A stretch of 33,675 nt of DNA from a virus, in IMG/VR virus record IMGVR_UViG_3300009183_000033, positions 1 to 33,675 of that record, one strand, 5' to 3'. The notes under the pieces were generated by a model, which worked only from the letters and a program-made list of their open reading frames with translations, did not search any database and was not told the origin of the DNA. The position numbers and the translations under genes are program-made. The first letter of the stretch is position 1, and the number at the start of each line of letters is the position of its first letter. Of the stretch, positions 11,743-26,108 are shown in pieces.

Positions 11743-12642
11743 TTAGCGAATCTTTCCAGCCAATCGTGCTGCCCTCCAAGCCTGATATGAACCATGAAAT
11801 TGACCATCACTGGTCAGGTTTACATCACGCCCGTTGGCTGCTGATCTGATTGGATTGATCGGCGCGGGTGCTTTACTTTTCCCAACAACAGGCTTTGCAT
11901 CAGTCTTTTCGTACTGCGCTTCCAACCTCCCAATTGCTCTCAAGGCGGCGGTTAAGGTCATGCCTTGCAGTTTTACAGCGTAGTCAGGATTTTCAGCAAG
12001 GTGGTACAGGATGCGTGGGCCAACATCTGATTCAAAGATCGCGTCCCGCACTTCGTTACTAACAGTAACGTCTGTGGAATTGACCATATCGTCAAAGTCT
12101 GGCATTTCAGCTTTAGCTGCCTTTACCCGTTGACCCCATGCGTCTATCAGCTTGGAATGTTCGGCGGCGGCTTTAGCCTGCACTTCCTTTTGCTTCTCTT
12201 CCTGCAATCGCTGTTCCACTCGATAGTCAGTCAACGCCTTGGCGTATTCGTACATATCGCTGAACTGCTCTGGCAAAGGTTCTGTTTCGAACACTGGTTC
12301 AGCTTTGGGCTGAAACTGCGCCTCCAAGTCCCTTACCTTTGCTTCCAAAGTTTCCCTTGCTTCACGTTCCTTTCGGGCTTCTTCCCGTGCGGCTTCGCGT
12401 TGCTTGGTTATCTCTGAAAACCGTCTTTCCAGCTTGGGATTTTGTTTTTTATCCTCTGTTGCTGTCGCTTCGTTCTCTACCTCTGTCGGCTCACTCTGTC
12501 CTTGCTCAACCTCTTGCGGCTCTGCCTGTTCGACAGCCTCGCTTGGGAGTGGATCAGCTAAACCCATTCGTTTGGCATTAAATTCAGCTAAATTTTCACT
12601 TGTCACCACATTGGCGGCAAGTCGTTCTGCTACTTCTGACAT
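11743..12642 (-). CDS. Scaffolding protein, P22 gp8-like
   Basis: The 299-residue product is strongly charged and predicted mostly helical. It has an acidic N-terminal half (EAVEQAEPQEVEQGQSEPTE), a long E/K/R/A coiled coil (ITKQREAAREEARKEREARE), a Q/E/A-rich centre, and a basic C-terminus (AWRAARLAGKIR) where P22-type scaffolds bind coat. P22 gp8 is 303 residues. It sits just before coat in the same operon. The SD is GAGGAAAC, 4 bases before the ATG. Motifs are limited, as usual for scaffolds, but size, composition and position agree. Confidence 0.88.
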   Translation of the reverse strand: MSEVAERLAANVVTSENLAEFNAKRMGLADPLPSEAVEQAEPQEVEQGQSEPTEVENEATATEDKKQNPKLERRFSEITKQREAAREEARKEREARETLEAKVRDLEAQFQPKAEPVFETEPLPEQFSDMYEYAKALTDYRVEQRLQEEKQKEVQAKAAAEHSKLIDAWGQRVKAAKAEMPDFDDMVNSTDVTVSNEVRDAIFESDVGPRILYHLAENPDYAVKLQGMTLTAALRAIGRLEAQYEKTDAKPVVGKSKAPAPINPIRSAANGRDVNLTSDGQFHGSYQAWRAARLAGKIR

Positions 12643-12664
12643 TGAGTTTCCTCAAAGAATTCAC

Positions 12665-12681
12665 CCAGTTGACCCAACTGG
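12665..12681 (-). promoter_or_regulatory. Hairpin in the scaffold mRNA leader
   Basis: CCAGTTG-ACC-CAACTGG is a perfect 7-bp inverted repeat with a 3-base loop in the 77-bp gap upstream of the scaffold gene. It has no T tract, so it is not a classic terminator. It could be an RNA-processing or stability element that lets scaffold and coat be expressed apart from portal. Confidence 0.5.
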
Positions 12682-12719
12682 TAAGGTTTTGCGGTTTTTA
12701 CCACGAAATCAATTATGCG

Positions 12720-13193
12720 TCAATCTTTTTTGTGAATCACTTTTCTAGCCACAATTCCATGCCCAACATCATATTCTTTTTCATATCTTTGGGCTTTTGT
12801 TATTGGGTATAAATATTTTTTTGCCCCCGGTTTAATATCAAATTGCGATCCTTGTGGCACTAAATGTTTTTTCTGTAATTCTCTAAATTGCTTTTCATCA
12901 ACAATAAGGGGTTCTCCAATATGTGCTGATCCTATTGCTTTTGCACTTCCCTCGCCAGTACGAACAATAGCCATATGTTTATTTACATATGGGCGCAATG
13001 AATCAGATTCTCTAGATTCATAGGCTTTTTTTCCATCAACAATTAAATCAGCATAAGGTAAACCAGCAGATTTATCTGACTTAACATTTATTCCCATGCT
13101 ATGCGGAACTTCTGATGAAGTTTTTAATTGCCCACGTTTTTCCATGAATTCACGATCAAATTGCGCCTTGTTTTCACTAGTTACGGTTGGCAT
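12720..13193 (-). CDS. ASCH/PUA-like domain protein between portal and scaffold
   Basis: The 157-residue protein starts MPTVTSENKAQFDREFMEKR. The core at residues 44-95 reads LPYADLIVDGKKAYESRESD, then HMAIVRTG and AIGSAHIGEP. The GKKAYESRE element followed by a hydrophobic strand and a G-rich turn matches the ASCH (PUA-like beta-barrel) pattern GxKxxExR. ASCH proteins bind RNA or modified nucleotides, and at least one subgroup (YqfB) is an N4-acetylcytidine amidohydrolase. The C-terminus is basic (GAKKYLYPITKAQRYEKEY, KVIHKKD). It is not part of the P22 head module, so it is an extra gene carried among late genes. Activity is unproven. Confidence 0.65.
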   Translation of the reverse strand: MPTVTSENKAQFDREFMEKRGQLKTSSEVPHSMGINVKSDKSAGLPYADLIVDGKKAYESRESDSLRPYVNKHMAIVRTGEGSAKAIGSAHIGEPLIVDEKQFRELQKKHLVPQGSQFDIKPGAKKYLYPITKAQRYEKEYDVGHGIVARKVIHKKD

Positions 13194-13202
13194 ATTGTTA
13201 CC

Positions 13203-15422
13203 TTATTGCATGGGTTGTTCAAATGTTTGCTGTGCTGGCGGTTGCATTTGTTCCTGCATTGGCTGCGCCATTTGTTGCGGTTGAATTGGTTGTTGCATTT
13301 GCTCTTGCGGCAATGTTAATGGATTTGCGCCGTGCGAAATGTCCTGTGCGGCAATCATTGCATATTGTTGCTGTTCAGCGTTAAGGCGTTCAATCTCCAT
13401 CAACAATTGATCAGGAGACATTCTCGCAATCAGCATCTTGACCAATGCATCAATCTCAGTTTTGTTTTGGCTAGTAACAGCCCGGGTATTTTGGTCATTG
13501 ACCTTAACCTCTGCCATTGTTTCAGTATTGTGCGCCCGTGCAGTAACGTCCATGAGTTTGCGTCTAGTAGCGCCCTCTTCGCGAATCTGGGCAACCTGAC
13601 CACGGTTGTTGATTTCCAACTGGGCGGCTTGCAATTGCTGTTGCATCTGCTGCACTTGTTGCTGTGCTTGCGCCAAACGCATCTGCACTTCAGGCGGTAT
13701 ATCGGATTTCTCATCAATATTAGCCATTGGGTTCATGGAGGCAAGGCGGTCTGCAATCACATCAGCACCGGGGAAGTCCATGTTCCTAAACACCAAGTCA
13801 CCCGCAATGTTGAACAATTCTGCGTTGCCTGTAAGCAAGGGCATCATGGCTTCAACTGCTTGCTGGCGCTTGCTTTGGAAGCCCGGCCCTGTGTCCATCA
13901 CCACATCATATTCACCCACAGTCACATCATTAAGAACCTCGCCAACTTCATTCTTTTGGTTGATTTCGGTCATGTCAGGTTGACCATCTGAACCAATGAT
14001 TCGCATTACCCGTTCTGTGTCGTAAATTTTGGGTATCAAGTCCAACAGGATTTTGCCTGTATGCCGAATGGATCGGGTCATGTTGTCGTAGAAGTGGAAA
14101 TTGCTTAGATCAGTCTGGTTTTGCTGACCTTGCAAGGCTTTGCCTGAAATGTTGCCGCTTGGTAGTTGGTTTGGATCAAGGATGCCCAACACCATCTGCA
14201 AGTCTGCGGAAATGGCGGCAGCGGCTTCCATGATGCCAGCGGGTGGTGGTTCGGGTTGCAGGCGGGTAGGCACTGGGGCTGGTACGCCCTCAATGTCTTT
14301 CTGCTTGTAACGCAACACAGGGCTTGACTTAATGTTAGCCAGCGCCCATTCGTTTTCGTGTCCCTCGTCTTGACCCTCTGCCAGCAGCCATTTAGCCTTT
14401 GGTGCAAGGGCAACCGATTCGGTCATGCTGGTGCGCCAGAAGTTGTACATACGCTGCGGGTCTTTGGCAAACCGCACCAAGCCATATTTCTTGCGCTTAT
14501 CATCAACAATGACTTGTGCGCCATAGCATGGAACGACAGGGATGTACTTGCCTGCCCATGTCTTTTCTTCCAATATTTCTATGGCAGTCATCTTGACCCA
14601 CTTCACCGCCTTGCGAAACGATTCACGTTCATCAACCACGGTCAAGCCAGCGGCTTCCACACGTTCAAAGAACCTTTCCGAATCGGCAAATTGGCGTGTG
14701 CCATCACTTAGCAAATACAGCTTGGCACGTTCACGTTCAACATAAAAGAATTCAGCTATCCGAATATCTTCCTTGGTGATCCAGCTTGCTGTGTCATCAC
14801 CCGTAGAACGCTGGGTAAAGTTAGCACCATCATCAGCATCAGGGTAATAATCCTTGAAAACCTTTTTGTCCAATACTGTGGTGATCAAACAACGTTCAGC
14901 GTCTGACCCATCAGGCAGTATTGAATTGGGGTCAAAGTACACGGTGAACGGATTATCAATCGTGTCAATGTAGATTTCTTGATCAAATGAATCCTCGCTT
15001 GTGTAGCGGGTATTGATGCGCCAGTAGCCCCAACCCATCCGCACGGCGTAATCAAAGGCGGTGTCATAGGCGGTGTCAGCATTGGAATTAACCTCAATGT
15101 GACGGGTCATGCCCTCAATCACTTGGGCTATCTTGTAATCAGCCAAGTTATTCACAGGGTGAACTTTGATGCGTGGGCGTTGCATCCGTTGCTGGTTTGT
15201 TACCTGTCGCACATAGGCATCAATCTTGTTGATGGTCAAGCAAGGTCGTGCCTCTACGTTTCTGCTGTTCTGTATCTCAACAGGCCATTGATCACCAGCG
15301 GCAAACTTAATATCCTGCAATGCCTCTGCGCGATTGGTGGAATCTGCGTCATTGACCAACCGCCAAAACTCTATGGCTTTGTTGATTCTGTCGTCTTTGC
15401 CTGCTGCGTCTTGGTAAGCCAT
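13203..15422 (-). CDS. Portal protein, P22 gp1-like
   Basis: The 739-residue product (P22 portal is 725) opens MAYQDAAGKDDRINKAIEFW, with DIKFAAGDQWP and RPCLTINKIDAYVRQVTNQQ. This is the signature of P22-type portals, the dodecameric ring through which DNA is packaged. Residues 100-480 hold the stem/wing and clip domains (WGYWRINTRYTSEDSFDQEI, NPFTVYFDPNSILPDGSDAE). The C-terminal part is a long Q-rich coiled coil (LAQAQQQVQQMQQQLQAAQL) with a Gln/Pro/Met-rich tail, equivalent to the barrel of P22 portal. It follows the large terminase by 19 bp. Confidence 0.93.
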   Translation of the reverse strand: MAYQDAAGKDDRINKAIEFWRLVNDADSTNRAEALQDIKFAAGDQWPVEIQNSRNVEARPCLTINKIDAYVRQVTNQQRMQRPRIKVHPVNNLADYKIAQVIEGMTRHIEVNSNADTAYDTAFDYAVRMGWGYWRINTRYTSEDSFDQEIYIDTIDNPFTVYFDPNSILPDGSDAERCLITTVLDKKVFKDYYPDADDGANFTQRSTGDDTASWITKEDIRIAEFFYVERERAKLYLLSDGTRQFADSERFFERVEAAGLTVVDERESFRKAVKWVKMTAIEILEEKTWAGKYIPVVPCYGAQVIVDDKRKKYGLVRFAKDPQRMYNFWRTSMTESVALAPKAKWLLAEGQDEGHENEWALANIKSSPVLRYKQKDIEGVPAPVPTRLQPEPPPAGIMEAAAAISADLQMVLGILDPNQLPSGNISGKALQGQQNQTDLSNFHFYDNMTRSIRHTGKILLDLIPKIYDTERVMRIIGSDGQPDMTEINQKNEVGEVLNDVTVGEYDVVMDTGPGFQSKRQQAVEAMMPLLTGNAELFNIAGDLVFRNMDFPGADVIADRLASMNPMANIDEKSDIPPEVQMRLAQAQQQVQQMQQQLQAAQLEINNRGQVAQIREEGATRRKLMDVTARAHNTETMAEVKVNDQNTRAVTSQNKTEIDALVKMLIARMSPDQLLMEIERLNAEQQQYAMIAAQDISHGANPLTLPQEQMQQPIQPQQMAQPMQEQMQPPAQQTFEQPMQ

Positions 15423-18169: not shown

Positions 18170-18327
18170 TTTTTGGCAGTCTTGGCTGATTGCTTAAATG
18201 CGGCGGCAGTAGGTGCGCCCTTTGCGCCCGGCGTTCTCATGCGTTCAGGCTTTTTGCCCGCAGCCTTTTGCGCCTCTATACGTTCCTGTTTTGCATGAAT
18301 ATTTGCATAAAGTCCAGTTTTTGCCAT
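18166..18327 (-). CDS. Small basic conserved phage protein (53 aa)
   Basis: I place the start at the ATG at 18327 (MAKTGLYANIHAKQERIEAQ) because its A overlaps the TAA of the GroES-like gene (TAATG). The longer frame from 18348 reads back into that gene. The product has a GKKPERMRTPGAKGAPTAAA segment and a Lys-rich end. The pattern MxKTGLYANIHAKQxRI...RxPGxKGAPT is common in tiny phage proteins near head genes. Function unknown; it may bind nucleic acid or be a minor head protein. Confidence 0.72.
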   Translation of the reverse strand: MAKTGLYANIHAKQERIEAQKAAGKKPERMRTPGAKGAPTAAAFKQSAKTAKK

Positions 18328-18584
18328 TACGCCTCCACTACCGCACAAATGTCGGCTTCTTGAATGATTTGATAATCCTGCCCATCAATGTGATGCACAG
18401 GCCAGTTCAGATAATCCCCGTTGCCATACTTGATGAAGTCGCCAACCTGAATTTGATCTGCATCTGGGCCAACCGCAACCACTGTTCCCTCGTTAAATGA
18501 TTCTTTGTTGTTGACATAGATAATGTCTGACAACTTGCGAACATTAGGGCGAACAACTACGCGATCATGCAATGGCTGGATCAT
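18327..18584 (-). CDS. GroES-like co-chaperonin
   Basis: The 85-residue product begins MIQPLHDRVVVRP, matching the GroES hallmark PLHDRVxV. A loop KLSDIIYVNN stands where GroES has its mobile GroEL-binding loop (GGIVLT). Then come GTVVAVGP, VGDFIKYGNG and the closing QEADICAVVEA, equivalent to the ESDILAIVEA end of bacterial GroES. E. coli GroES is 97 residues, and here the roof hairpin is shortened. By analogy with T4 gp31 it may replace or compete with host GroES on GroEL to fold the phage coat protein. The overlap with the 74-aa gene is 20 bp. Confidence 0.9.
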   Translation of the reverse strand: MIQPLHDRVVVRPNVRKLSDIIYVNNKESFNEGTVVAVGPDADQIQVGDFIKYGNGDYLNWPVHHIDGQDYQIIQEADICAVVEA

Positions 18585-19010: not shown

Positions 19011-19370
19011 TTAGTCAAGATACTTCAGTTTATACAAGGTTGAATTGATCAAGTCGGCGATTTCATCCACCAAATTTTGCAATTCTGTGTCTTGTGGCAG
19101 TTCCTTGCGGGATTCTTCCACAAATTCTTTCATGTTTTCCAAATACTTTACTGGGTCTTTTTCAGTATGAAATTCTTCAGGAAATTTTTTAAGCTGATCA
19201 TATTTGCCCATGTACGCTTCGGCATATCTATCAACCAAGTCAATAATTTTTGCATAATATTTTTTCAACGCCTTATGTTTTGCATAGTTGGTGCTTGACC
19301 AATGCATGAAATGCGTCACCGTTGAACTGTGCAACAGGTGCGCTACGAATTCGGCTACTTCATCATTCAT
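19011..19370 (-). CDS. DUF5856-like ferritin/Dps-type helical protein
   Basis: The 119-residue product is all-helical and reads MNDEVAEFVAHLLHSSTVTH, then FMHWSSTNYAKHKALKKYY, IIDLVDRYAEAYMGKYDQL and TELQNLVDEIADLINSTLYK. The order of HLLHSSTVTH..HW, YAKHKAL..YY and DLVDRYAEAY motifs matches a phage family (DUF5856) related to Dps/ferritin-like four-helix bundles. The spaced His/Asp/Glu residues could bind metal. It is the first gene after the strong terminator and may be the first late gene. An oxidative or iron-handling role is only an inference from the fold. Confidence 0.75.
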   Translation of the reverse strand: MNDEVAEFVAHLLHSSTVTHFMHWSSTNYAKHKALKKYYAKIIDLVDRYAEAYMGKYDQLKKFPEEFHTEKDPVKYLENMKEFVEESRKELPQDTELQNLVDEIADLINSTLYKLKYLD

Positions 19371-19412: not shown

Positions 19413-19796
19413 TCAAGACAACTGCACATCCATTGTAAACGTGGGAATTGGTACGTCAACAGGCCAATTGCCATCATTGAAAAGTTTTGCAACCGTGGCA
19501 ATGTGGGCGTGATGCCACTTTTCCTGTCGTTCTTCTTTGGTCAAGTCTTTGCCTTGATCAATTTCAAAATGGCATTTGAGGCACAACGCAGCCACCAAAT
19601 TGTCATCAGCTTTGATTCCTCTGCCTTTGCCGCCACCCCAATTGGTGTGCGCTGCCTGCACCATATTTCCTGACCCGCAGGCTTGGCAGTCAAGTCCCGC
19701 CACCAGTTTCAGTAATTTTTTGCTTCGGATGTATTGGTGTTTTGCGTACAACGATTGTCTCCAGTGTGGTGAATCTGTGTTCATTAGCGCATTCAA
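19413..19796 (-). CDS. HNH/Ref-like zinc nuclease
   Basis: The 127-residue product has LVAGLDCQACGSGNMVQAAH, then GKGRGIKADDNLVAALC and LKCHFEIDQGKDL. Zinc cysteines are C37, C40, C72 and C75. The AAH (H50), KADDN (D64-D65) and CHxxID (H76) residues fit the HNH nuclease arrangement found in lambdoid DUF968/Ref-like proteins, which act in late DNA processing or recombination. The start (19796, or an internal ATG at 19784) lies 107 bp inside the preceding zinc-ribbon gene. The true start could lie further in, but no ATG is available before the core. It ends just ahead of the terminator. Confidence 0.8.
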   Translation of the reverse strand: MNALMNTDSPHWRQSLYAKHQYIRSKKLLKLVAGLDCQACGSGNMVQAAHTNWGGGKGRGIKADDNLVAALCLKCHFEIDQGKDLTKEERQEKWHHAHIATVAKLFNDGNWPVDVPIPTFTMDVQLS

Positions 19797-19875: not shown

Positions 19876-20201
19876 TGGTGCGCCCTATCTTGCATCCTAT
19901 TTGTGGCTTCGCGTGTGCGCCAAATCTCAATATCAAGCCTTGCCGCCTCAATTTCCCATTTAAGGGTTTCTTCTTGTTCAATTGCCACCGCCAACCCACT
20001 TAACAGTTTTTGATAAACAGGACTTGCGTAGGCTTCGCGTTCTTGGGCGTTGGCGGCTTCAAACCCCATTTCTAAGGCATCTTTCATCAGCAGCGCCTTT
20101 TGGCTTTTGCGAAATTCTTCAAGATAAACCCGCTGGGCTTTGGCTTCACCAAAAGCTGCGGCTTTATTGCGTATTTCTTGGGCGGCTTGTTCAGGTTTCA
20201 C
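19872..20201 (-). CDS. Conserved helical protein of the replication operon (109 aa)
   Basis: The product MKPEQAAQEIRNKAAAFGEA continues with KAQRVYLEEFRKSQKALLM and AQEREAYASPVYQKLLSGLA, ending in a charged helix (EETLKWEIEAARLDIEIWRT). It is nearly all helical with no cysteines or membrane segment. Proteins with the order RVYLEEFRKSxKAxLM...AQEREAYAxPxY are common beside Holliday-junction-type nucleases in Burkholderiales phages, but I know no function. It overlaps its neighbours on both sides by 4 bp, indicating tight translational coupling. Confidence 0.75.
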   Translation of the reverse strand: MKPEQAAQEIRNKAAAFGEAKAQRVYLEEFRKSQKALLMKDALEMGFEAANAQEREAYASPVYQKLLSGLAVAIEQEETLKWEIEAARLDIEIWRTREATNRMQDRAHQ

Positions 20202-20464
20202 TTCAATATTCCAATCATGCGTAGGGCGGCTTCAGGGCTATCAACCCTTGCCAAGGTACTACCAGACCAATTCTCGAAAAAATCGGCTTGTAGGGCTGTT
20301 AAACGCTTCCTAGCGTCTGTTTTGATCTCCACCAAGAACGTGTGGGACTTGTAGCCAACCAAAAGGTCAACTGGCAGGCTGATGACCCACACAAAAGCGC
20401 CAGCATCCCTTAAAGCCTTAACAATGGCTTCTTGGTTTGCGTCAGTTCTTTTTGCGTGTCTCAT
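20198..20464 (-). CDS. PD-(D/E)XK (VRR-NUC/resolvase-like) nuclease
   Basis: The 88-residue product MRHAKRTDANQEAIVKALRD has an E12 helix, then VDLLVGY with D33, HTFLVEIK with E46 and K48, and a following LTALQADFFENW helix. E-(D)-ExK order and spacing fit compact PD-(D/E)XK nucleases of the VRR-NUC or Holliday-junction-resolvase-like group found in phage recombination operons. It would cleave branched DNA or flaps. It is probably expressed with the replication genes; it overlaps the next gene by 4 bp and the previous one by 23 bp. Confidence 0.82.
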   Translation of the reverse strand: MRHAKRTDANQEAIVKALRDAGAFVWVISLPVDLLVGYKSHTFLVEIKTDARKRLTALQADFFENWSGSTLARVDSPEAALRMIGILK

Positions 20465-20645
20465 GATTCATGTCTTGGCGTAATTGATCAGCGGCGGCGC
20501 GACCACGTTTTTTTGCTATGTCGGATAAGGTCATCTGCCACCACCCAGTGGCTTTCTGTTTGCCCTCCTCTGTCACTTTCTTGCGATACCGCTTGACCCA
20601 TTCCCGCGCTTCCGTGATCCGCATCCACTCTTTCGATGTGTCCAT
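20442..20645 (-). CDS. Conserved basic protein (67 aa), overlapping its upstream gene
   Basis: I start it at the ATG at 20645 (MDTSKEWMRITEAREWVKRY), since AGGGGA stands 5 bases upstream. The TTG at 20648 is an alternative. It continues with KATGWWQMTLSDIAKKRGRA and ends DQLRQDMNHETRKKN. The basic helical pattern EWMRxTEARxWVKRY...DIAxxRGxxAAxxLRxDM looks like a conserved phage protein. Its first 158 bp lie inside the frame of the 86-aa gene (20488-20748), so the two either truly overlap or were once a single gene joined by a frameshift. Confidence 0.68.
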   Translation of the reverse strand: MDTSKEWMRITEAREWVKRYRKKVTEEGKQKATGWWQMTLSDIAKKRGRAAADQLRQDMNHETRKKN

Positions 20646-20748
20646 CAATGTCCCCTGTCATTTCTAGCGCCTTTCTGACTGTGTGGCTTGGGTAAGCTAC
20701 GCCATCGCGCACACGGTCAAGGATAGCCATTGCGTTTTCATAGGTCAT
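20488..20748 (-). CDS. Short conserved protein with an atypical overlapping C-terminus
   Basis: The 86-residue frame starts MTYENAMAILDRVRDGVAYP and continues SHTVRKALEMTGDI. This N-terminal part resembles conserved phage proteins (MxYxxAMAILDRVRxGxxxP...ALxxTGD). After about residue 36 the composition changes to a sequence without obvious pattern (SQESDRGGQTESHWVV), while the +1-shifted frame carries a conserved-looking protein. So either the C-terminal half is only the overlap, or a frameshift joins the two. It overlaps the glycosyltransferase stop by 4 bp (ATGA). Confidence 0.55.
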   Translation of the reverse strand: MTYENAMAILDRVRDGVAYPSHTVRKALEMTGDIDGHIERVDADHGSAGMGQAVSQESDRGGQTESHWVVADDLIRHSKKTWSRRR

Positions 20749-21758
20749 TGCAATATTCCCTTTACGGCTTCAAGAACTTGGTTTTTTTCTGATTTAATTA
20801 TTTCAACGTTTGACTGCTGAATAGTTAAGTAATGTTTATATGACTGATTGTCAGAATCCAGCATTTCCATTTTTTCTTTAAGTTCTTCACCGTTTGCAAC
20901 AATTTGAAAAGGATCTATGGCATAACCACTTTTTTCAATTACCAAAGTGCAACGGCTATCGTAAAACATTAAAACATTGTTCATTACGCATTCATAGAAT
21001 CTGTTTGCCATGAACGCATAATTTGTATGTGTATGTTCATCTTCAAAATAAATTGAATACTTATAATCTTTTAATCTAAGTCCTATGGGTTCAAAAAGAT
21101 CAGCTTCTTTTTCTGTCCATATTATTTTTTCAATAAACTTGGCTTGTATGCCAGCATCTTTGTATTTCAAATGATTTTTTGCTGATGAACTAAGAATATA
21201 ATTTACGTTGTTGTAGTTCAGCATATCTTTTATGCGGTGTTTTCTGAAAGTGCCGTAATAAATTACATCTTGTTTTGCAACGTTGCTGTTAAAAAAAACA
21301 TTTTCATCAAAGACCAGTGTGTTTAGATTAACTGTATGCCAATCTTTGATCCAATCATTTAACGTTAGGCCATTCATTTTTTTGCGGAGAATCCAACCAC
21401 GGTATCCAGTGCGCGGATTGTTGCAAATCATGTTGTAGGGTTTGTTATTCAACAAAAGCCATTTACGCAGCAAAATATTGTCTTCAATGTCATGGTCATT
21501 GACCAACCAATACATTTCGGCATCAACATTCTTTTGCAAAATTTCCAAATACTTGTTGTATTTCATGTACGGGGATGAATAGGCACAAATGATTTTGTCG
21601 TATTTTTTTTCCAACGCTTGGGGAATTTCTGATTCGTGACTTACAAAATCACATTCCAAGTAATCGCGCAAAATTAAAGAATTTTTAACGTGAACAATTG
21701 AAGTAATTGTGTCAGCTTGCATACGTTTTTCACATGATTCAATAATTAACGTTTTCAT
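20745..21758 (-). CDS. Putative GT-B-like glycosyltransferase (possible DNA modification)
   Basis: The 337-residue product starts MKTLIIESCEKRMQADT. It has an N-terminal alpha/beta half (KYDKIICAYSSPYMKYNKYL, AEMYWLVNDHDIEDN), then VIYYGTFRKHRIKDMLNYNN, NYILSSSAKNHLKYK and NYAFMANRFYECVMNNVLMFYD. The YGTFRKxR, YEDEH.H and NRFYECxxNNVLxFYD elements match the nucleotide-sugar-binding C-terminal half of GT-B transferases in phages. No signal peptide or membrane segment is visible. It stands between the helicase loader and small replication genes (ATGA overlap upstream), and its base composition is clearly more AT-rich than its neighbours, suggesting later acquisition. Target could be phage DNA or a protein/surface glycan. 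Confidence 0.65.
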   Translation of the reverse strand: MKTLIIESCEKRMQADTITSIVHVKNSLILRDYLECDFVSHESEIPQALEKKYDKIICAYSSPYMKYNKYLEILQKNVDAEMYWLVNDHDIEDNILLRKWLLLNNKPYNMICNNPRTGYRGWILRKKMNGLTLNDWIKDWHTVNLNTLVFDENVFFNSNVAKQDVIYYGTFRKHRIKDMLNYNNVNYILSSSAKNHLKYKDAGIQAKFIEKIIWTEKEADLFEPIGLRLKDYKYSIYFEDEHTHTNYAFMANRFYECVMNNVLMFYDSRCTLVIEKSGYAIDPFQIVANGEELKEKMEMLDSDNQSYKHYLTIQQSNVEIIKSEKNQVLEAVKGILQ

Positions 21759-22117
21759 AATGTTCTTCTTAATTCTGCAAGTTTGCGTTTGGCCTCTGCA
21801 ACCACTTCAGGGTCAACAGGTTTAGGGTTGTAGGTGATCTGTTGTTCATCCCGTGGGATGGCTGGGCCTGCGTTGCAAAATTCCCTAAATTTAATTGCAC
21901 TTGGCACAAAGTCAGAGTTAAGGCGATCAATCGCGTAATCCATGCTGGGTCGGTAGGTTAAGAACTTGCCAAGCTGCCGCTGCCATTCAGTGCGGACATT
22001 AACCAAATCAATGCCATCCCAATGCCTTGCAAAGTTTGCGCCGTAGATAGCACTCATGCGGGTGAAGATGTAATCAAAGCCAGCGTCCACATCACACCAA
22101 TCGTTTGGGTTCTTCAT
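21755..22117 (-). CDS. Helicase loader, lambda P-like
   Basis: The 120-residue product MKNPNDWCDVDAGFDYIFTR has FTRMSAIYGANFARHWDG, then RTEWQRQLGKFLTYRPSMDY, AIDRLNSDFVPSAIKFREFC and a basic C-terminal helix. The IFxRMxxIYGxxFxxxW...WxxxLGxF...P..xxFRExC pattern is that of short P-type replication proteins, which bring host DnaB to the initiator. It overlaps the O-like gene by 26 bp and is followed by the glycosyltransferase (4-bp overlap). The phage has no DNA polymerase, helicase or primase that I can see, consistent with use of the host replisome. Confidence 0.82.
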   Translation of the reverse strand: MKNPNDWCDVDAGFDYIFTRMSAIYGANFARHWDGIDLVNVRTEWQRQLGKFLTYRPSMDYAIDRLNSDFVPSAIKFREFCNAGPAIPRDEQQITYNPKPVDPEVVAEAKRKLAELRRTL

Positions 22118-22838
22118 GAATCACCTCCAAGGTTTCGGTTTTAGCCCAAAAGGGCGCTGCTTTTGGCCCTGACATTCCCCTTGTCAACAGGTTCATGTTG
22201 GCGGCGGCTTTTTGATTTGCTGTCTGTTTTTCAGTAACCCATTCAGCTTTTAACCCTTGGCTACCTCTGGTACACCATTCAATTAAAAATTGGTCAAGTG
22301 TCCAGTTAAGTTTGCCAGCTTCAGCCCGTGCGCCTTTGAGTACGGTTTCGGTGACTGATGCTTTTTTGGTTTTCCGCAATTGCAGCCAATCCTGCCAAAC
22401 CTGTGGAGTTACGTCATGGGGGCAGGCAACGCTAGTTGCCCTCTCTTTAATTGGTTTATCGTTTATCGTTATTGGTTTATCGTTTATAGTTGCCTTAGCG
22501 ATGGGTTGCGAGTCGGTAGCCACTGGGTTCTTTTTGCGTCCACCAAGGCGACCATTAGCCCTATTTTTCTCAGCCATCGCATGATATTGCTCAATAATTA
22601 ATTCACATCGACCATGATGCCAGCCTGTTTCAGTTAGCTTAAACATATCCTGTAAGACAACCTTGACCACCTTGGTATCCAACCGCAAGCGCTTGGCAAC
22701 CCACTGGGTATCCAGCGGGATTTGATTTTCAGTGTCGTAATACATATCCAAAAGTCGGCGGTAAGCCAAATCTTCATCATTGGATAAATGTGCGGTGGCG
22801 GCTCGGTAGTCGCCAATATTAAATTGGTAATAATGCAT
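22092..22838 (-). CDS. Replication initiator, DUF1376 (lambda O-like)
   Basis: The 248-residue product MHYYQFNIGDYRAATAHLSN continues LAYRRLLDMYYDTENQIPLD, the DUF1376 winged-helix start found in phage replication proteins that fill the lambda O role. A low-complexity stretch at about residues 117-129 contains TINDKPI twice, from two tandem 21-bp DNA repeats. A helical C-terminal half (TPQVWQDWLQLRKTKKASVT, EAGKLNWTLDQFLIEWCTRG) is the usual loader-interaction region. The SD GAGG is 8 bases before the ATG. Together with the P-like gene it would start replication from an internal origin. Confidence 0.87.
   Translation of the reverse strand: MHYYQFNIGDYRAATAHLSNDEDLAYRRLLDMYYDTENQIPLDTQWVAKRLRLDTKVVKVVLQDMFKLTETGWHHGRCELIIEQYHAMAEKNRANGRLGGRKKNPVATDSQPIAKATINDKPITINDKPIKERATSVACPHDVTPQVWQDWLQLRKTKKASVTETVLKGARAEAGKLNWTLDQFLIEWCTRGSQGLKAEWVTEKQTANQKAAANMNLLTRGMSGPKAAPFWAKTETLEVIHEEPKRLV
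22450..22491. repeat. Two tandem 21-bp repeats, candidate origin iterons
   Basis: Copies at 22450-22470 and 22471-22491 differ at one base. Each contains the core ATTGGTTTATCGTTTAT, itself built on TTTATCG. They lie in the middle of the O-like gene, the same place as the lambda origin iterons, and are AT-rich compared with the flanks. They could also be only a protein-level repeat (TINDKPI twice). Confidence 0.6.
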
Positions 22839-24513: not shown

Positions 24514-25080
24514 ATGAAACAAATTGCAACCGCACTGGTCAAAGCACAAAAGGCGTTTGGGCCTGCTTTAAAGTCCTCTACTAACCCGCATTTCAAATCC
24601 CGCTACGCTGACCTGTCTGCCTGCGTGGAAGCTGTTATAGACGCTTTAAACAATAACGGAATAGCGTTGATTCAGAAATCTTATGATTGCGTTGATGGCA
24701 TCATGATTGAAACCGTGTTTGTGCATGAGTCAGGCGAAATGCTAGAAACTGGCGTTCTTAGATTTCCATTAATGAAAAACGATCCCCAAGGCGCAATGGC
24801 GTGTTTAACTTATGCGCGGCGCGGTTCGTTGATGGCTGCTTGCGGCATTGCCCCAGAAGATGATGATGGCAATAGCGCCAGCCGCCGCACCGAAATCAAG
24901 TCCACGGTTAATGAAAGCCAATTGGCTGACCTGATGGCGGCGATGGATGAAACCACCACATTAGAAGAATTGCAAAAGACTTACAAAACAGCTTATGCCG
25001 CAGCCAATGGTGACCCAGCTTGGCAAAAGAAAGTAATTAAAAGCAAAGATGACAAAAAAGCACAGTTGGAGGGCAAATGA
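24514..25080 (+). CDS. erf: ERF-family single-strand annealing protein
   Basis: The 188-residue product MKQIATALVKAQKAFGPALK has STNPHFKSRYADLSACVEAV, then NNNGIALIQKS and GAMACLTYARRGSLMAACGI. These are the hallmark segments of the ERF superfamily (P22 Erf type): the NPxFKSxYADL motif, a central IALxQ strand and the TYARRYxLxxxxGIxxEDDDGN-like motif at residues 99-125. It anneals complementary single strands for recombination and circularisation. The C-terminus is a helical segment (TTLEELQKTYKTAYAAANGD) with a basic tail. It precedes YqaJ exonuclease and SSB-like genes, a lambda Red-type set. Confidence 0.92.
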   Translation: MKQIATALVKAQKAFGPALKSSTNPHFKSRYADLSACVEAVIDALNNNGIALIQKSYDCVDGIMIETVFVHESGEMLETGVLRFPLMKNDPQGAMACLTYARRGSLMAACGIAPEDDDGNSASRRTEIKSTVNESQLADLMAAMDETTTLEELQKTYKTAYAAANGDPAWQKKVIKSKDDKKAQLEGK

Positions 25081-25298
25081 TTACCTACACTTATAAAGAT
25101 GTGATTCCAAATGTGGAAGCCATATATGACTGTTTTATTGAAGATGAAAAAGCGGAATTTATGTTAATTGCTGCTTTAAGTTTTGCTGCTGAAATTAACA
25201 CTCATCTTGGATTGAATTTAAAAACAATAAATGCTTTGTTTAGTCAGTGTGAAAAAGATTATATAAAAAATGTGCTTGAAGAATTGGAGGGCAAATGA
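25077..25298 (+). CDS. Small acidic helical protein (73 aa) between erf and exonuclease
   Basis: The product MITYTYKDVIPNVEAIYDCF is mainly helical (MLIAALSFAAEINTHLGLNL, KTINALFSQCEKDYIKNVLE) and overlaps erf by 4 bp (ATGA). It ends EELEGK, like the end of erf (QLEGK), because the gene junctions share a GGAGGGCAAATGA-type sequence that supplies both SD and overlap. No known motif is recognised. The codon use is more AT-rich than erf or the exonuclease. A modulator of the annealing/exonuclease pair is a guess by position. Confidence 0.65.
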   Translation: MITYTYKDVIPNVEAIYDCFIEDEKAEFMLIAALSFAAEINTHLGLNLKTINALFSQCEKDYIKNVLEELEGK

Positions 25299-25516
25299 AA
25301 CACGAAATATCACTTGACACATTGGTCATGGCAAAACGCGCCTTGGAAGAATTAACCCAGTGGCATTTGGAAAGGGCGGTTAAAGATATACCTGAGTTTG
25401 ACCGCACCGCTGATTTGCGTAAACGTGCCTACAAAGCCGCCAGCCAAATTGACTTGTCTATATACACCCTTTTATTAACAAAATTGGAGATTACAGATGG
25501 AACAGGGAACAAGTGA
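25295..25516 (+). CDS. Small helical protein (73 aa) preceding the exonuclease
   Basis: The product MKHEISLDTLVMAKRALEEL continues TQWHLERAVKDIPEFDRTAD and ends in a helix YKAASQIDLSIYTLLLTKLE. It starts in an ATGA overlap, shares 20 bp with the exonuclease start, and so is tightly coupled with it. Nothing beyond predicted helices is visible. It is probably an accessory of the recombination operon, but its function is not known. Confidence 0.65.
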   Translation: MKHEISLDTLVMAKRALEELTQWHLERAVKDIPEFDRTADLRKRAYKAASQIDLSIYTLLLTKLEITDGTGNK

Positions 25517-26108
25517 ATGGTTTGCCGCTAGATGCGGCAAGGTCACCGCCAGCCGCGTGGCAGACATTATTGCCAAGACCAAGACAGGGCCAAGCGCCAG
25601 CAGGGAAAACTATCTTGCCCAAATTGTGTGTGAACGCATGACAGGCAAACCCGCAGAGTCATATAGCAATGCTGCGATGGCTTGGGGTACTGAACAAGAA
25701 CCTTTTGCCCGTGCCGCCTATGAGTCTGCTAAAGACGTTTTAGTTGAAGAAGTAGGGTTTGTATTGCACCCCAACATTTCAGAGGCTGGTGCGTCCCCTG
25801 ATGGCCTTGTGGGGTTGTTTGGATTGGTTGAAATAAAAGCGCCCAACACCGCCACACACATCCAGACTTTGCTAGATCAAAAAGTGCCTGAAAAGTACAA
25901 CACGCAGATGCAATGGCAAATGGCTTGCACTCAGCGCCAATGGTGTGACTTTGTAAGTTTTGACCCACGCATGGCAGAGGGCTTACAACTGTTCATCAAA
26001 CGGGTTGAATTTGACCCACTCTATGTAGCCAGCCTTGAAAAAGAAATCTTGAATTTCTTATTTGATGTTGAACACAAAATCACCCAACTTAACAAACTGA
26101 AAGACTGA
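25497..26108 (+). CDS. YqaJ-type lambda-Exo-like exonuclease
   Basis: The 203-residue product MEQGTSEWFAARCGKVTASR has the YqaJ opening QGTxEWxxxRxGxxTAS, then NAAMAWGTEQEPFARAAYES (E66, E68), GASPDGLVGLFGLVEIK with D102, E112 and K114 as the PD-(D/E)XK catalytic set, and YNTQMQWQMACTQRQWCDFV (conserved Gln). It degrades one strand of duplex ends to give the 3' tails that ERF anneals. About 20 bp of its start lie in the upstream gene. It is directly followed by the SSB-like gene. Confidence 0.92.
   Translation: MEQGTSEWFAARCGKVTASRVADIIAKTKTGPSASRENYLAQIVCERMTGKPAESYSNAAMAWGTEQEPFARAAYESAKDVLVEEVGFVLHPNISEAGASPDGLVGLFGLVEIKAPNTATHIQTLLDQKVPEKYNTQMQWQMACTQRQWCDFVSFDPRMAEGLQLFIKRVEFDPLYVASLEKEILNFLFDVEHKITQLNKLKD

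Follow-up and report, generated by a model that had tools for sequence, protein, structure and literature searches.

The window analysed here, a whole stretch of 33,675 nucleotides of viral DNA, carries on its minus strand a gene for a 337-aa BGT-like GT-B glycosyltransferase (20745–21758; ATG at 21758, TGA ending at 20745), hereafter GT, which we read, with a probability of roughly 0.6, as an accessory UDP-sugar-dependent DNA glycosyltransferase that serves as a horizontally exchanged anti-restriction cassette. The protein itself is almost certainly a GT-B glycosyltransferase related to the DNA beta-glucosyltransferase (BGT) of phage T4, and DNA is its probable target. What the computational analyses bring out is a predicted GT-B fold, homology to BGT, an operon position shared with methyltransferases and Mom, and the lack of a recognisable dCMP hydroxymethylase; the UDP-sugar donor, the DNA target and the protective role we infer. 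The open reading frame had been noticed in a first-pass annotation made from the sequence alone, which left out the strand, and both motifs quoted there are present, YYGTFRKHR at residues 167–175 and NRFYECVMNNVLMFYD at residues 252–267. The window very probably represents a complete genome whose ends join into a circle, because its first 123 bp (1–123) are repeated exactly as its last 123 bp and one gene crosses the junction of the two ends in frame. The genome encodes P22-like portal and coat proteins and a terminase. One genome scan yielded no more than two MAG contigs, from betaproteobacterial and cyanobacterial bins; since two contigs are too few, the naming of a host was dropped.

Single-sequence searches of Pfam, PHROGs and the PDB gave no match for the window GT. 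An AlphaFold2 model computed from 29 sequences reached a pLDDT of 88.4 and a pTM of 0.87, and in a Foldseek comparison with 350,542 PDB chains its six best matches were all T4 BGT (E 1.2e-10 to 7e-8, TM 0.66–0.69). The significant PDB matches were GT-B fold glycosyltransferases, in line with the fold that had been proposed from the motifs, and an earlier, weaker structure model likewise ranked BGT first. Phage glycosyltransferases commonly act on the envelope or lipopolysaccharide, in superinfection exclusion or serotype conversion, and HepE and BshA are indeed found among the fold matches. However, BGT lies clearly above both: the first non-BGT match is HepE with an E-value of 6.5e-6, four orders of magnitude weaker than the best BGT. 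Moreover, in almost every lineage seen the GT gene lies within or close to genes for replication and recombination, and an envelope role of the window protein is thus very improbable. The suspected kinship to phage DNA glucosyltransferases was also recovered at the profile level, where the GT family aligned with eight true BGTs with a probability of 97.7% (hhalign, E 1.9e-12). A narrower profile from which the distant members were left out gave 84% (E 8e-6), a profile search of the PDB placed BGT first (E 0.05), and in a tblastn search of 50,697 phage records with the GT member of Citrobacter phage Ci1 the best non-self matches were BGTs (E 2e-3 and weaker). In structural alignments the window GT and BGT are 14–18% identical. 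Profile homology to T4 BGT without any pairwise or Pfam match to it places the protein in a distant branch of the BGT family (GT63), and we know of no biochemistry for members of this branch.

The GT gene is represented at more than 50 loci, identified in two scans of viral contigs, with identities of 57–85%. Synonymous divergence (dS) is saturated at a dN of about 0.10, and dozens of positions do not vary across the family. Together, these observations mean that the open reading frame is not a chance one, and the gene appears to be under strong purifying selection. Most of the phages that carry it have genomes of 33–52 kb. A distant homologue is present in Cronobacter phages S13 and LPCS28 and in Citrobacter phage Ci1 (26–27% identity over the full length, tblastn E 2e-15), with two contigs, L093 and L094, encoding intermediate members. 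In the latter contig (L094:4177-5696), the bridging member directly follows a ParB-like gene and precedes the terminase small and large subunits, outside the replication operon proper.

In structures of BGT, Arg191, Arg195, Arg269 and Glu272 bind UDP and Asp100 is the catalytic base; D100A is named in the title of one BGT PDB entry. The position that aligns with Asp100 is Asp88 of the window GT (21495–21497, minus strand), which is aspartate in 50 of 53 members and glutamate in the other three, namely those from S13, Ci1 and L094. Arg172 and Arg175 in YGTFR-KHR (21234–21245, minus strand) align with Arg191 and Arg195, and Arg253 and Glu256 in NRFYE (20991–21002, minus strand) with Arg269 and Glu272; all four are invariant (53/53). 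Judged by these alignments, the UDP-site and catalytic-acid positions of BGT are kept in the GT family. A catalytically dead relic that binds DNA, a reading to which the absence of a known acceptor is the one pointer, is hardly credible in view of the full conservation of donor-site and catalytic positions and the strong purifying selection. The acceptor side is another matter. The base-flipping loop of BGT (INFFGG, with Asn70 and the GG turn) is replaced by SPYMKYN in the window GT, and acceptor handling is therefore expected to be unlike that of BGT. Such a loop would suit an enzyme in which the donor site of BGT was kept and the acceptor side re-purposed, so that a protein or RNA, for instance a tRNA, a defence protein or a polymerase of the host, would receive the sugar early in infection. 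GT-B enzymes use many acceptors, and the lack of a base-making partner in the complete genomes, as well as the undiminished palindrome avoidance of small GT-carrying phages, both described below, are also compatible with a protein or RNA target. Against it stand the nearest relatives in fold and sequence, which are DNA glucosyltransferases, the S13 branch, which resembles a modified-DNA phage, and the operon position of the gene. A protein or RNA target is thus rather unlikely.

The operon in which the GT gene resides is transcribed from the minus strand. Upstream are the genes for a DUF1376/O-like primosomal replication protein (22092–22838) and a P-like helicase loader (21755–22117; phrog_109, E 5e-4), and downstream are an 86-aa gene (20488–20748), an endonuclease-like small replication/recombination gene (20198–20464; phrog_93) and an HNH endonuclease gene (19413–19796; phrog_131, E 8.5e-25). 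Recombination genes for an ERF annealing protein and a YqaJ exonuclease are divergently oriented (24514–26108, plus strand). The translational coupling described in the first-pass annotation takes the form of 4-bp ATGA overlaps on both sides, the GT start overlapping the stop of the helicase loader at 21758 and the GT stop overlapping the start of the 86-aa gene at 20748. Two minus-strand open reading frames, at 20442–20648 and 20488–20748, overlap in different frames; one has a DUF7696 match and the other is conserved at 72–78% in relatives. Further downstream, also on the minus strand, 18327–18584 and 19011–19370 encode a GroES-like co-chaperonin and a PHROG 858 protein ('starvation-inducible regulator'), of which S13 also has a relative. 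A DUF1376 replication gene lies near GT in 34 of 54 clustered loci (the window counted), and in other lineages the neighbours encode a TOPRIM-AAA protein, a helicase, a DNA ligase, or a RecE-like exonuclease and other recombination functions.

Of 80 contigs retrieved by the window DUF1376 protein alone, 61 have enough downstream sequence, and GT was found in none of these. The operon position of GT, or slot, is bordered upstream by the P-like gene and downstream by the 86-aa gene. In contig L118, the P-like gene is followed by a 319-aa C5-cytosine methyltransferase (C5-MTase; PF00145, E 1e-33; L118:1217-2176) and then by the small genes of the window. The flanking proteins of L118 are 71%, 72%, 91% and 94% identical to those of the window, the first three values referring to the P-like helicase loader, the 86-aa protein and the endonuclease-like protein, respectively. 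The same swappable slot is seen in L137, L162 and L164, among others. Mom occupies it in L125 (7099-7755) and L166 (PF25680, E 1e-36), and an N6/N4 methyltransferase in L134 (2083-3033) and L184 (PF01555, E ~1e-51). Over the 94 slots that are bounded on both sides, 25 contain GT, 43 no large gene, 8 a C5-MTase, 5 Mom and 2 an N6/N4-MTase, the rest being filled by other or unassigned genes. Large occupants besides GT are, by their domain matches, mostly predicted DNA-modifying enzymes, and the place after the P-like gene can be regarded as a swappable DNA-modification cassette position. That GT shares this position with C5-MTase, Mom and N6/N4-MTase, all of which modify DNA, argues most strongly for DNA as its target and speaks against a protein or RNA target. 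A 225-aa protein that by eye is GT8-type (GT-A)-like is encoded in the same operon at L004:8101-8778, L006:8101-8778, L008:7362-8042 and L141:3282-3962, the L006 copy having no Pfam match. A PAPS-reductase-like gene (PF01507 in L126), separated from the slot by a few genes on its downstream side, is present at L118:2713-3438, L126:5084-5935 and ten further loci, possibly pointing to a sulfur-based modification.

If DNA is the target, the question is what provides the acceptor. To our knowledge, all known phage DNA glucosyltransferases act on a base that was pre-hydroxylated by a companion enzyme, and a gene of the gp42 or thymidylate-synthase type was present in every true BGT phage examined over its whole genome. 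As the first-pass annotation had noted for hydroxymethylases, no such gene was found in the window genome, nor was a C5-methyltransferase or thymidylate synthase. A PF00303 search detected none in the window and in nearly all related records, and it did detect its positive controls, gp42 of T4 and S16 and the thymidylate-synthase-like genes of the nattely and LR756500 phages. The exception is G036 (contig L050), which has, besides a full thymidylate synthase gene, the broken C-terminal part of another (12533-12745, 13730-14677). C5-methyltransferases (PF00145) were found in 0 of 44 records, and the pattern of a 5mC-TET hypermodification system is thus not seen. TET/JBP domains (PF12851) were found in 0 of 18 records in a search whose positive controls were silent as well, which makes this weak evidence. 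At the HMM level, GT and terminase are the only proteins common to five complete GT genomes, so that no obligatory phage partner is visible to the methods used. In the literature searched, no paper on a hydroxymethylase-free BGT was found. A bolder reading, which we put forward tentatively as rather unlikely, is a self-sufficient BGT-like DNA glycosyltransferase that would work without a phage hydroxymethylase, on a plain base or on a base hydroxylated otherwise, and that would have spread through small phages as an anti-restriction cassette of a single gene. Another version, which is included in the probability of the main reading and is itself doubtful, is T4-like glycosylation of hydroxymethylcytosine (hmC) or hydroxymethyluracil (hmU), for which the host, or a phage enzyme that escaped recognition, would supply the hydroxymethyl base. 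The BGT homology and the retained catalytic-acid position agree with it. So does the finding that a C5-MTase is present within 4 kb in 0 of 33 GT loci with DUF1376 compared to 12 of 80 GT-less ones (Fisher nominal p-value = 0.017, uncorrected for kinship or for the different retrieval of the two sets), a pattern compatible with both enzymes acting on cytosine C5. GT and Mom occur together once (L049), and GT and an N6/N4-MTase cluster also once (L048). The small set of genes shared by the five complete genomes is a point against an hmC or hmU acceptor, and we know of no bulk hmC or hmU in free-living bacteria.

The distant homologues in cultured phages bear directly on this point. The GT gene of S13 (S13_057; KC954775, 42631-43560) is flanked by uvsY and uvsW in a Straboviridae genome of 182 kb, and its product, like WNL62995.1 of the S13/LPCS28/Ci1 group, is an uncharacterised protein. 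In T4 and related phages, the hmC genes are located between gene 43 and uvsX. These two genes are adjacent in S13, gp42 was not found in S13 or Ci1, and the single thymidylate synthase of S13 is of the td type. At the same time, S13 has Alc (E 5e-50), and DenA and DenB are annotated in its genome; these three genes would fit an hmC or hmU acceptor. A 2021 survey of Tevenvirinae bases sets S13 apart, argues that DenB and Alc may indicate non-canonical bases and, in the passages considered, does not mention the GT gene (PMC8056088). From its gene content and its palindrome usage, given below, S13 looks like a modified-DNA phage without a known route, for which the GT family is the sole candidate seen here, and S13-type cultured phages likely carry a DNA modification not yet known. 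The gene just upstream of the S13 and Ci1 GT was considered as a partner and rejected, as it has no PHROG match and is limited to S13/Ci1-type phages. With respect to an hmC or hmU acceptor in the window phage, the S13 branch also provides a counterargument, since window proteins with S13 matches are few: besides GT, there are one clear match, the PHROG 858 protein, which two of the five complete genomes lack, and one marginal match.

Palindrome usage gave a different picture for the window lineage. The observed/expected (O/E) ratio of 6-mer palindromes is 0.83–0.86 in S13, 0.89 in T4, 0.73 in RB49, 0.69 in RB43, 0.59 in T7 and, over 17 kb of Enterococcus phage nattely, 0.86, compared to 0.52 in the window genome (0.07 for GC-rich 6-mers). 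S13 is thus like T4 and unlike RB49, RB43 and T7, and nattely belongs to the same group as VPE25, whose DNA resists bisulfite conversion (PMC4999554). The median ratio of GT-carrying phages, 0.55, is hardly different from that of their GT-less relatives, 0.51 (p-value = 0.07). Palindrome avoidance in the window lineage thus argues against long-standing, genome-wide protection of the T4 type, and palindrome usage was discarded as support for DNA protection in this lineage. Relatives with Mom or a C5-MTase in the slot (G058, G059, G063, G064) avoid palindromes equally strongly, and quick turnover of cassettes could therefore explain the avoidance in the window. Such very strong avoidance also suggests hosts in which restriction pressure is heavy. 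The DNA-modifying role that had been proposed for the protein is favoured indirectly, by BGT homology, the shared slot and the S13 phages; palindrome usage in the window lineage speaks against an old, genome-wide protection.

Acquisition of the gene had been suspected from its AT-richness, and indeed its GC content is 0.325 compared to 0.461 for the rest of the window genome. AT-richness alone was rejected as proof, because GC3 spans 0.15 to 0.64 among family members, and a comparison with the terminases was used instead. The window and G006 are 84% identical in GT and 26% in terminase, and G027 and G029 are 87% and 27% identical, respectively. Similarity in GT is not paralleled by similarity in terminase, which implies that the gene moves between unrelated phages; together with the cassette slot, this sustains the idea of acquisition.

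Taken together, the main reading, an exchangeable DNA glycosyltransferase, predicts the following course of events. GT would be made from the phage replication operon alongside the replication proteins, would use a UDP-sugar of the host as donor, UDP-glucose being the simplest guess, and would transfer the sugar to a base in freshly replicated phage DNA, which would thereby be masked from host nucleases. The acceptor could be a base that an unrecognised enzyme or one of the host has hydroxylated, or else a group on unmodified DNA. A conserved and widely exchanged BGT branch without a hydroxylating companion would imply a new route to the acceptor or a new acceptor. If the main reading is true, it would represent a one-gene DNA-masking cassette, useful for studies of counter-defence and as a labelling enzyme, and since S13-type phages have already been cultured, the question is directly testable.

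Among known systems, the T4 alpha-glucosyltransferase and RB69-type arabinosyltransferases are phage DNA sugar transferases like the proposed GT, and were absent from its best fold or sequence matches. T4 BGT (CAZy GT63; PDB 1J39, 1QKJ) shares with GT the GT-B fold, an alignment over nearly the full length, the UDP-site and catalytic positions and an early/replication gene context. It differs in its base-flipping loop and in the low sequence identity, in the size of the T4 genome (about 170 kb) and in the presence of a dCMP hydroxymethylase, which GT does not have next to it. The S13, LPCS28 and Ci1 proteins belong to the same family as the window GT and have the same invariant residues, and S13 and Ci1 resemble the window in their apparent lack of gp42. 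Unlike the window, S13 has its GT gene between uvsY and uvsW of a far larger genome, together with Alc, DenA, DenB and relaxed palindrome avoidance. The BGT of Enterococcus phages VPE25 and nattely (about 42% identical to T4 BGT) is likewise encoded outside the T4-like phages, and differs from the window GT in that nattely has a thymidylate-synthase-like gene close upstream; VPE25 DNA resists bisulfite conversion (PMC4999554). Finally, Mom, C5-MTase and N6/N4-MTase of the related phages occupy the same operon position as GT, between the P-like gene and the small endonuclease genes, and yet are unrelated enzymes with other chemistry.
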